Origin: Candidatus Poribacteria bacterium
Lineage (GTDB): Bacteria > Poribacteria > WGA-4E > WGA-3G
DNA: 46,580 nucleotides
Reading direction: 5' to 3'
Assembly (NCBI GenBank): GCA_028820845.1
Contig: JAPPII010000026.1
Span: forward strand, 89,421-136,000
A model generated the notes under the pieces. That model had not been told where the DNA came from, ran no database searches, and saw only the letters and a list, made by a program, of their open reading frames with translations. Below are positions 12,254 through 14,372 of the stretch, in pieces (position 1 is the first letter of the stretch; every line of letters starts with the position of its first letter). The position numbers and the translations under genes were made by a program.

Positions 12254-13105
12254 ATGGACACAAGTTGGCTTGAACACTGCGCGACGGACGAGCAGCTCAA
12301 AGCGTTTAACGACACGGGTTACCTCGTTGTTGAGGACGCTATAAGCACGGAGATGGTAGATGCCTTAGAGGAAGTCGCAGATCGGATTGATGCCGAGGAG
12401 CGTACCAAAACAGGATTAGCACCCCACAAATTGTTATCAAAGTTCCGGACCGTCGCTGAAGACGACTTGCTACTGGAGCTGCTTGATAACAAAAAGGTTT
12501 TCCCGCTGCTTTGGGATATTCTCGGTTGGAACATCCAACTTTACATCTCGCACCTCATCATGTACCCGCCAGAACCTCCTGATACACCTCGTATTGCCAA
12601 AGCCGCCCACTGGCATCAGGACGGTGGTAGACCTGTGCCGGAAATGGAGCGTCCACATCCGCGACTTTCATTAAAAGTCAGTTATTGGCTAAGCGACGTG
12701 CCTGACCGTGATAACGGCGCAATGCGTCTGATTCCGGGTAGCCATAAACTCGACACCCGACCGCCTAATAAGGACGACAATCCTGATGGGGATCCAGAAG
12801 GTGCGATAGACCTGCTCGTTAAGCGCGGCACAGCGGTGCTTTTTGATAGACGGATGTGGCACTCACGCGGCTGGAATTTTTCTGATGTAACTCGGAAAGT
12901 TTTGTTTATGGGGTATAGTTATCGTTGGTTGCGCGGTTTGGATTACAATCTCATGCCACCGGACCTCCTTAAAAAGTGTGACCCGATTCGGCGGCAGCTC
13001 TTGGGTGATGGTGTAGATATTAAGGGCTGGTGGCAACCGACGGATGCGGATGTCCCACTGAAAACGTGGATTGCCGAACATCGTGGGGAGGAATATTTAC
13101 GGTAG
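12254..13105 (+). CDS. Phytanoyl-CoA dioxygenase (PhyH)-family Fe(II)/2-oxoglutarate oxygenase
   Basis: The product is 283 residues; GGAGAGG at 12241-12247 fixes the ATG at 12254. The facial triad is visible: 'HWHQDGG' supplies His121 and Asp123, and 'MWHSRGWN' supplies His203. Arg214 in 'VTRKVLFMGYSYRW' is placed to bind 2-oxoglutarate. The jelly-roll strand 'GAMRLIPGSHK' is typical. The enzyme is cytosolic (no signal peptide) and hydroxylates a small organic substrate that cannot be read from the sequence. Expansions of this family are known in Poribacteria. Its 3' end overlaps the convergent HNH gene by 9 bp. Confidence 0.9.
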   Translation: MDTSWLEHCATDEQLKAFNDTGYLVVEDAISTEMVDALEEVADRIDAEERTKTGLAPHKLLSKFRTVAEDDLLLELLDNKKVFPLLWDILGWNIQLYISHLIMYPPEPPDTPRIAKAAHWHQDGGRPVPEMERPHPRLSLKVSYWLSDVPDRDNGAMRLIPGSHKLDTRPPNKDDNPDGDPEGAIDLLVKRGTAVLFDRRMWHSRGWNFSDVTRKVLFMGYSYRWLRGLDYNLMPPDLLKKCDPIRRQLLGDGVDIKGWWQPTDADVPLKTWIAEHRGEEYLR

Positions 13106-13324
13106 AAATTTTTGCACATAATCTCCACGATCTGCTAACGTGTGACAATTAGGACACAAAGCAATAAGATTTTCATACCTGTGCTCTTTACATTTCGACC
13201 ATGGGATAATGTGGTGGATATCCACCTCAATAATCTCTCTACACTTATGGATAGCACAACGGTGTCCTGCTTCGCAAAGAATGCGTCGTTTCAGTTCTGC
13301 TGGTACGTTTGGACGTGACCTCAT
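13097..13324 (-). CDS. Small HNH endonuclease
   Basis: The product is 75 residues and almost entirely an HNH domain. Structural Cys pairs are 'CAIHKC' and 'CPNC', and the active-site signature is 'VDIHHIIPW...YENLIALCPNCHTLAD', with the His-His pair, Asn and final His in order. AAGGA lies close to the ATG. Stand-alone HNH proteins cut DNA in mobile elements, restriction or repair; no partner domain is attached here. It lies next to the PIN/antitoxin genes on the same strand and overlaps the end of the PhyH gene convergently. Confidence 0.82.
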   Translation of the reverse strand: MRSRPNVPAELKRRILCEAGHRCAIHKCREIIEVDIHHIIPWSKCKEHRYENLIALCPNCHTLADRGDYVQKFLP

Positions 13325-13361: not shown

Positions 13362-13893
13362 TCGCTTGTTGTTAGTCATCAGATTTTTCTGAGGCGGTGC
13401 GTTTGGAGGGATCATAGGGGGTGTATTTGAGTCCGTTGCGTTTGTCCTCTTCCTCCATTGCTTTCAAGTACTTGTAGTATTCGCCCGGTTTCTTGAATTT
13501 GGCACTGATTTCTGCTTTGATTCGATAGCATTCTTCAAGAATCGGATCCGTATAAGTTTCGGGATCGAAATCTGGATGTTTTTCTGGTGTTTCTTTCATC
13601 TGAGCATCCTTCATCAATTTTTCCAAAATTTCGCTTGTTGTTAGTCATCATCAGATTTTTCTGAGGCGGTGCGTTTGGAGGGATCATAGGGGATGTATTT
13701 GAGTCCGTTCCGCTTGTCCTCTTCCTCTCCGGCTTTCAAATACGCAAAGAATTCCGCCTGAGTCTTGAATTGCGCGCTGATCTCCGCTTTGATTCGATAG
13801 CATTCTTCAAGGATAGGATTCGTATATGTTTCGGGGTCGAAATCTGGATGTTTTTCTGAGGTTTCTTTCTCTTTCATCTGAATGTCCTCCATC
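13362..13893 (-). repeat. Tandem duplication of about 269 bp covering the antitoxin-like module
   Basis: Both copies begin with TCGCTTGTTGTTAGTCATCA (13362 and 13631) and stay highly similar through the module and its upstream 'ATGGAA...ATGA(A/G)G' leader. Copy one encodes the free protein and copy two the C-terminus of the PIN fusion. The third and later codon positions differ, so the duplication is not brand new. Confidence 0.8.
13372..13599 (-). CDS. Free copy of the antitoxin-like module
   Basis: The likely start is the ATG at 13599 (AAGGA seven bases upstream), giving 75 residues; the frame also has an ATG at 13626, giving 84. Its sequence ('HPDFDPETYTDPILEECYRI', 'DKRNGLKYTPYDPSKRTASE') is nearly the same as the C-terminus of the PIN-domain protein directly upstream. 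The 'DPI(L/V)EE..(I/K)..I' helix resembles short antitoxin-like proteins found next to PIN toxins in other bacteria; that link is inferred. It arose by tandem duplication and is separated from the PIN gene by 14 bp, so the two are surely co-transcribed. Confidence 0.65.
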   Translation of the reverse strand: MKETPEKHPDFDPETYTDPILEECYRIKAEISAKFKKPGEYYKYLKAMEEEDKRNGLKYTPYDPSKRTASEKSDD

Positions 13894-14372
13894 AGTTCCA
13901 TAGGTGTGCAGATGGTTATAGGTTGAAATCCTACTTCTTGGCAAACTTGATTGATATATTCACGTTTGTTTTCATTCACAATATGTTTATGGTTCCATGA
14001 CACCAAGTAATCAACACCATGCCCTGTTGCAATGGCGATATGCTGTGCATCGGGTCTTGCATTTCGTGGCACTGCACCGGAATCAAGCAGTTTTTCCACG
14101 AGGTTATCCATCTCGGGTGAAATTTCCAATGTCGTTAGCGAAGATACCACATCAAGTCGTTGCTGTGCTGCGGTTGGATCGCCTCGCTGGATTTCGGCGC
14201 GAACTACGCGGGAAATAACGAACTCAAACCTATCTGCATAATTCTCCCACAGCTGCCGACTCGCTCTTTGCCAAGAGGCTAATATTGGATCATTACTTGG
14301 TCGCGCTACCAAGTGACTAACAACTGTGGGTTCAATATAGACCCTTGGCTTTATTGTTACATATTTTAGCAT
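13641..14372 (-). CDS. PIN-domain (VapC-like) toxin fused to an antitoxin-like module
   Basis: The product is 243 residues. Residues 1-155 form a PIN domain with the expected acidic positions: Glu14 in 'YIEPTVVS', Glu60 in 'VVRAEIQRGD', Asp108 in 'ARPDAQHIAIA' and Asp121 in 'VDYLVSWNHK'. Residues 157-243 are the antitoxin-like module that also exists as a free gene next door. Inside the frame, GGAGGA precedes Met166 (13877) by normal spacing, so a separate 78-residue module could be translated from the same message. PIN proteins are Mg-dependent RNases. Whether the fusion is natural or arose by loss of a stop codon cannot be told from sequence. Confidence 0.75.
   Translation of the reverse strand: MLKYVTIKPRVYIEPTVVSHLVARPSNDPILASWQRASRQLWENYADRFEFVISRVVRAEIQRGDPTAAQQRLDVVSSLTTLEISPEMDNLVEKLLDSGAVPRNARPDAQHIAIATGHGVDYLVSWNHKHIVNENKREYINQVCQEVGFQPITICTPMELMEDIQMKEKETSEKHPDFDPETYTNPILEECYRIKAEISAQFKTQAEFFAYLKAGEEEDKRNGLKYIPYDPSKRTASEKSDDD

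Follow-up and report, generated by a model that had tools for sequence, protein, structure and literature searches.

In the Rpn system (RpnL/RpnS), translation from an internal start yields the C-terminal part of the protein, which neutralises the nuclease in its full-length form; additional free copies of this inhibitor (RpnES/ypaA) lie downstream (PMC10327210). EzeT, a zeta kinase with a cis antitoxin, is thought to derive from a fused bicistronic operon, according to excerpts of papers that are cited jointly for EzeT, CapRel and HicAB (PMC4826407, PMC13423816, PMC10865869). For genes-within-genes toxin-antitoxin (TA) systems, the origin of the nested antitoxin is an unsettled question. A search of the literature that included few subscription papers found no description of a fused PIN toxin-antitoxin gene with an internal start.

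The locus analysed here lies in a window of 46,580 nucleotides (the whole stretch of DNA that was studied) from a metagenome-assembled genome (MAG) of Candidatus Poribacteria, which in this case are sponge-associated bacteria. The features of the locus, in window coordinates, are these:

13641-14372, minus strand: PIN-module fusion gene, 243 aa (PIN residues 1 to ~165, flexible linker at ~168-177, module at 166-243)
13878-14372, minus strand: VapC-like PIN domain with acidic residues E14, E60, D108 and D121, recognised by an AlphaFold2 model, PDB fold match and residue conservation
13885-13890, minus strand: internal Shine-Dalgarno (SD) sequence GGAGGA, within the codons of Met161-Glu162-Asp163; duplex energy -9.3 kcal/mol
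13641-13877, minus strand: nested gene for the free module, with the internal Met166 as its start (codon 13877-13875)
13372-13599, minus strand: free module duplicate, 75 aa from the ATG at 13599
13607-13611, minus strand: SD sequence AAGGA of the free copy, preceding the ATG at 13599; duplex energy -4.8
13638-13897: copy 1 of the tandem duplication, the 3' part of the fusion gene with the internal ribosome-binding site (RBS) included
13366-13597: copy 2 of the tandem duplication (the free copy), pairing with 13638-13869 over 232 bp at 85% identity
13592-13619: adjoining duplicated stretch, pairing with 13870-13897 over 28 bp at 82% identity

The sequence-only reading of this locus had described a 243-residue frame that joins a PIN domain to an 80-residue C-terminal module, with GGAGGA at normal spacing before an internal Met166 and with a tandem duplication that supplies the module again as a free gene with its own AAGGA. 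Apart from the exact length of the module, which is ~78 aa rather than 80, this description holds: the ORF at 14372-13641 on the minus strand encodes 243 aa, GGAGGA is separated from the Met166 ATG by 7 nt, and the free copy duplicates, in tandem, the 3'-terminal third of the fusion gene. The ATG of the free copy lies 41 nt past the fusion stop codon, and its ORF (13626-13372, minus strand) would encode 84 aa if opened from the TTG at 13626. A chance repeat was considered as the source of the second module and is ruled out by the length and identity of the two paired stretches. The free and fused copies in the window differ by a dN of 0.09 and a dS of 0.54, and the duplicate is therefore neither fresh nor decaying.

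The preferred reading of the locus, to which a probability of about 0.7 is assigned, is a type II-like TA pair in which overlapping genes merged in frame and the antitoxin start was kept, such that one mRNA would give rise to the fusion and to an excess of free module. The neighbouring genes encode a sialidase-like BNR protein, LamG-domain proteins, a phytanoyl-CoA dioxygenase-like protein, a GDPD and a small HNH protein, and gene types of this sort place the locus outside any obvious defence island within the stretch examined. The HNH endonuclease-like gene (75 aa, 13097-13324, minus strand) lies directly 3' of the free module, and a frame-shifted relative of it lies 3' of the fusion at locus L004. 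The window's genome also carries two seemingly identical PIN pairs (L034 and L035, at G000:C17 and C61) in which the PIN frame is interrupted.

An AlphaFold2 model of the fusion protein that drew on 24 fused homologues (mean pLDDT 84.5, pTM 0.84) consists of a PIN domain at residues 10-166, a disordered segment at 168-177 and two helices within 186-221. The top PDB fold matches of this model were VapC toxins and FitB (Z ~9-11, up to 11.4, with 115-131 aligned residues at 10-20% identity), in agreement with the PIN domain that had been proposed from the sequence. The acidic residues named in that proposal are conserved in the fused family: position 14 is E in 64 genes and D in 2, E60 is kept in 68/68 and D108 in 70/70, and position 121 is mostly acidic (48 E, 18 D, 2 N, 2 A and 1 K). 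The window PIN protein has no match among Pfam or NCBIfam models, and PADLOC has no family for this protein or for the module. A PDB sequence search with the profile returned chance-level matches only, and scanning viral_contigs with the PIN domain of a relative gave no hit, but the Pfam PIN cut-off is passed by a relative from Kovacikia. Given the VapC fold match and the conserved acidic residues, the PIN assignment stands despite the missing Pfam and NCBIfam matches. The domain is probably a VapC-like ribonuclease, and its toxicity would presumably be that of an RNase.

Homologues with the same fusion turned out to be common: genome contigs and 85 poribacterial genomes were scanned, and 71 non-redundant fused genes, spanning several genera, were recovered. 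A PIN-domain tree of these 71 genes and 27 unfused relatives was obtained by a quick search and rooted on the cyanobacterial and gammaproteobacterial relatives; the root is approximate, since these relatives did not form one outgroup. The 71 fused genes make up a single clade (SH-aLRT 97) nested among unfused lineages, and the tree indicates that the fusion is old and of single origin within this clade. The unfused relatives come from Poribacteria, one cyanobacterial plasmid and one gammaproteobacterial plasmid. In all of these the PIN gene comes first and a distinct second gene encodes a similar module; this partner gene nearly always overlaps or abuts the 3' end of the PIN gene and, in nearly every case, lies in another frame. 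The RBS of this partner gene falls within the last PIN codons and often reads AATGGAGG (median duplex energy -9.3 kcal/mol), and codon 166 (Met) of the fusion corresponds by homology to the Met with which the partner gene starts. At one unfused locus (L080), CTAATGGAGGACTTTCAGCATGTGG matches the window's CTGATGGAGGACATTCAGATGAAA, and one base fewer between CAG and ATG would place both genes in one frame.

The sequence-only reading had also entertained a recent stop-codon loss compensated by the duplication, and the PIN and module genes of Kovacikia, which share a frame and are a single stop codon apart, would fit such an origin. For the fusion studied here this explanation is barely credible, because the fusion is common to 71 genes in several genera and its recency is contradicted by the tree, extra module copies are scattered and are absent at many fused loci, the two copies in the window are separated by a dS of 0.54, and the near unfused relatives overlap in another frame. 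In most of the unfused relatives the overlapping genes are in different frames, which makes a merger of the frames by a small indel likelier than the loss of a stop codon, and the comparison of unfused with fused genes suggests that the merger took place in this way. As judged from sequence, these comparisons demonstrate the direction of the fusion, from separate genes to one gene. Another PIN-module fusion, with its own internal SD and ATG and a free tandem duplicate (L119, at G027:C109, about 653-1690), falls among unfused genes in a starred clade of its own, which calls for a second, independent origin of the fusion. Two other variants were observed among the relatives. At one locus (L067, 1486 onwards, the same locus as L023) a fused gene has lost the module and kept its PIN frame open, which counts against the preferred reading; after MKEIPEKY, a GNAT-like start (MFRNATKDDLDK...) replaces the module, with no module in cis. 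In the sister unfused clade (L072-L079), the partner gene encodes ~215 aa, made up of the module and an extra C-terminal domain.

The case for a second product draws on the codons around Met166. In the 71 fused genes, codon 166 is ATG in 59 and GTG in 12 and nothing else, with at least six changes between ATG and GTG on the tree and none to other codons; the neighbouring Met161 is Ile in 27 of the 71. A one-step change from ATG to Val can give only GTG, so the appearance of GTG is not decisive by itself, but the Val codons at 166 have also all stayed GTG, whereas GTG makes up 20% of all Val codons, and codons 1 and 166 are the sole columns, among those listed, in which every Val is GTG. Glu162, which carries the GAGG of the SD, is encoded by GAG in 64/64 genes with 0 changes on the tree, as compared with 1-14 codon changes in 20 other Glu columns, all such counts being limited by the fact that the tips of the tree are not independent. 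Seven fused genes have Arg or Gly at 162, encoded by AGG, GGA or GGG, and retain a purine-rich SD. Codons 163 and 165 are free to change at their third positions (20 and 18 changes), and the stretch is thus not simply frozen.

It could be argued that the internal RBS is an unused fossil of the two-gene operon, or that it is constrained as protein sequence (L-M-E-D/E), and the same residues do belong to the C-terminal helix of the PIN domain. This view is quite improbable, given that GAG is held at 162 while other Glu codons switch, that amino-acid changes at 162 preserve the purine bases of the SD, that codon 166 is never Ile or Leu though Met161 changes, and that the third positions at 163 and 165 are free to vary. 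To the extent that alignments can demonstrate it, the internal SD and start codon are maintained at the nucleotide level across the fused family. The comparative evidence argues strongly for two products from one fused gene, and Met166 is presumably used as a start in the cell. Two narrower candidates were also rejected: protein-level constraint alone on the internal SD, by the codon-level comparison on the tree (GAG in 64/64), and Met161 as the inner start, by free copies (L014, L025) in which its ATG has become ACG or GCG and GGAGGA and Met166 are kept.

Duplex energies bear on the relative amounts of the two products. In 65/65 genes, codon 166 is preceded by a stronger SD than the start of the fusion itself, and the median duplex energy is -9.3 for the internal SD, +0.2 for the fusion's main SD and -0.4 for other in-frame ATGs. 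The window's genome carries a canonical anti-SD, and a clear SD precedes roughly half of the window's long ORFs. By duplex energy alone, the free module should therefore exceed the fusion.

Modelled in isolation, the module forms a two-helix hairpin in which no DNA-binding domain is recognised, and a Foldseek search of this model against the PDB found no match. A C-terminal K-Y motif is conserved. Pfam and NCBIfam gave no match for the module either, including none to a known antitoxin family, although a missing match does not exclude an RHH, AbrB, HTH or Phd domain. In the AlphaFold2 model of the fusion, Met166 lies where the final PIN helix ends, immediately ahead of the disordered linker, so that internal initiation would be predicted to release a clean module. 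By its arrangement and by analogy, the module may act as an antitoxin.

Copies of the module that stand apart from a PIN domain are widespread. In total, 42 free modules were recovered, some next to fused genes, some in arrays and some on their own; a few are at the edge of a contig or follow a PIN frame that is broken. Because the search pattern demanded M/V-K/Q/R-E, it would have missed free copies that start differently. Several orphan modules keep PIN coding remnants upstream. The median pairwise dN/dS (Nei-Gojobori, non-independent pairs) is 0.15 for free pairs, 0.18 for orphan pairs and 0.19 for fused pairs, and the low values for free and orphan copies argue that the module is selected as a protein in its own right. 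The sequence-only reading had named, as evidence that would refute it, a C-terminal module that regularly belongs to the PIN family and lacks free counterparts; half of this holds, in that the module is indeed a regular part of the subfamily, but free counterparts are widespread. The suggestion that one message could yield the fusion, a nested module and a duplicate is plausible, with the nested start conserved and the duplicate under purifying selection.

The number of PIN-module copies varies among poribacterial genomes, a pattern consistent with a system that is accessory, mobile or subject to rapid gain and loss. One array (L179, at G027:C203) holds two PIN fusions and three free modules in ~2.7 kb. 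In the window's own genome, one unfused paralogue (L036) has a tandem second copy of the module, and another (L037) has module copies flanking the PIN gene on both sides.

With no known antitoxin family and no PDB match, the module could also be a specificity or dimerisation domain. It would then help the PIN enzyme to target its substrate or to dimerise, and the free copies would compete or assemble with the fusion and set its stoichiometry, like the Cas11 small subunits in CRISPR complexes. Such a role would suit a module that is almost always linked to a PIN domain and that is a two-helix hairpin lacking a recognised DNA-binding domain, but orphan modules persist under purifying selection after PIN loss, and the two-gene order, embedded RBS and multiple free copies resemble the dosage of an excess antitoxin; this alternative is accordingly rated unlikely.

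The preferred reading, that of a TA pair merged in frame, can be laid out as a sequence of steps. In the ancestral state, the toxin gene would have come first, followed by a separate antitoxin gene whose RBS lay inside the last PIN codons. A small indel would then have put the two overlapping genes in the same reading frame, so that their products became one protein, and, with the RBS and start codon kept, one mRNA would be read twice. A weak main start would yield the full-length fusion, whose own module could inhibit the PIN active site in cis, and a strong internal start at Met166 would yield an excess of free module acting in trans. The tandem duplicate would be a third source of free module and would keep antitoxin above toxin. 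On a wider scale, the evidence leans a little toward a widespread and so far undescribed family of PIN TA systems, in which at least two mergers each kept the antitoxin RBS and start, with free duplicates present, and in which one gene would supply a pre-bound toxin together with excess antitoxin. The family displays, in two independent lineages, a before state of overlapping two-gene operons and an after state of in-frame fusions that keep the inner start, and thereby offers a testable route from a bicistronic operon to a nested gene. A single "VapC family" annotation would miss the second product of the fused gene.

The PIN-module family resembles several known systems in part. With VapBC, including FitAB, it shares the PIN toxin fold with an acidic active site and a small partner in the same operon. 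Unlike in VapBC, the toxin gene comes first, the partner is fused to the PIN domain and has its own internal start, and the module has no detected DNA-binding domain of the RHH or AbrB type, a missing match that is not an exclusion. EzeT, CapRel and fused HicAB likewise combine toxin and antitoxin in one polypeptide, but their toxin folds are different, and the excerpts of the papers concerned describe neither an internal start nor a free antitoxin copy (PMC4826407, PMC13423816, PMC10865869). Cas10d/Cas11d, in so far as it is covered by its citation in PMC10327210, offers an in-frame nested small protein that is made from an internal start and acts with the full-length product, although as a CRISPR complex subunit rather than as half of a TA pair. 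The closest precedent is Rpn, which has in common with the present family the logic of an internal in-frame start for the C-terminal part together with free downstream duplicates, a logic that is read here from the genes alone. Rpn is a PD-(D/E)XK DNA endonuclease, whereas the family described here combines a PIN (RNase-type) domain with an unrelated module, and by its fold it is not a member of Rpn. Unlike in Rpn, the ancestral two-gene operon of the PIN-module family can still be seen in its relatives.
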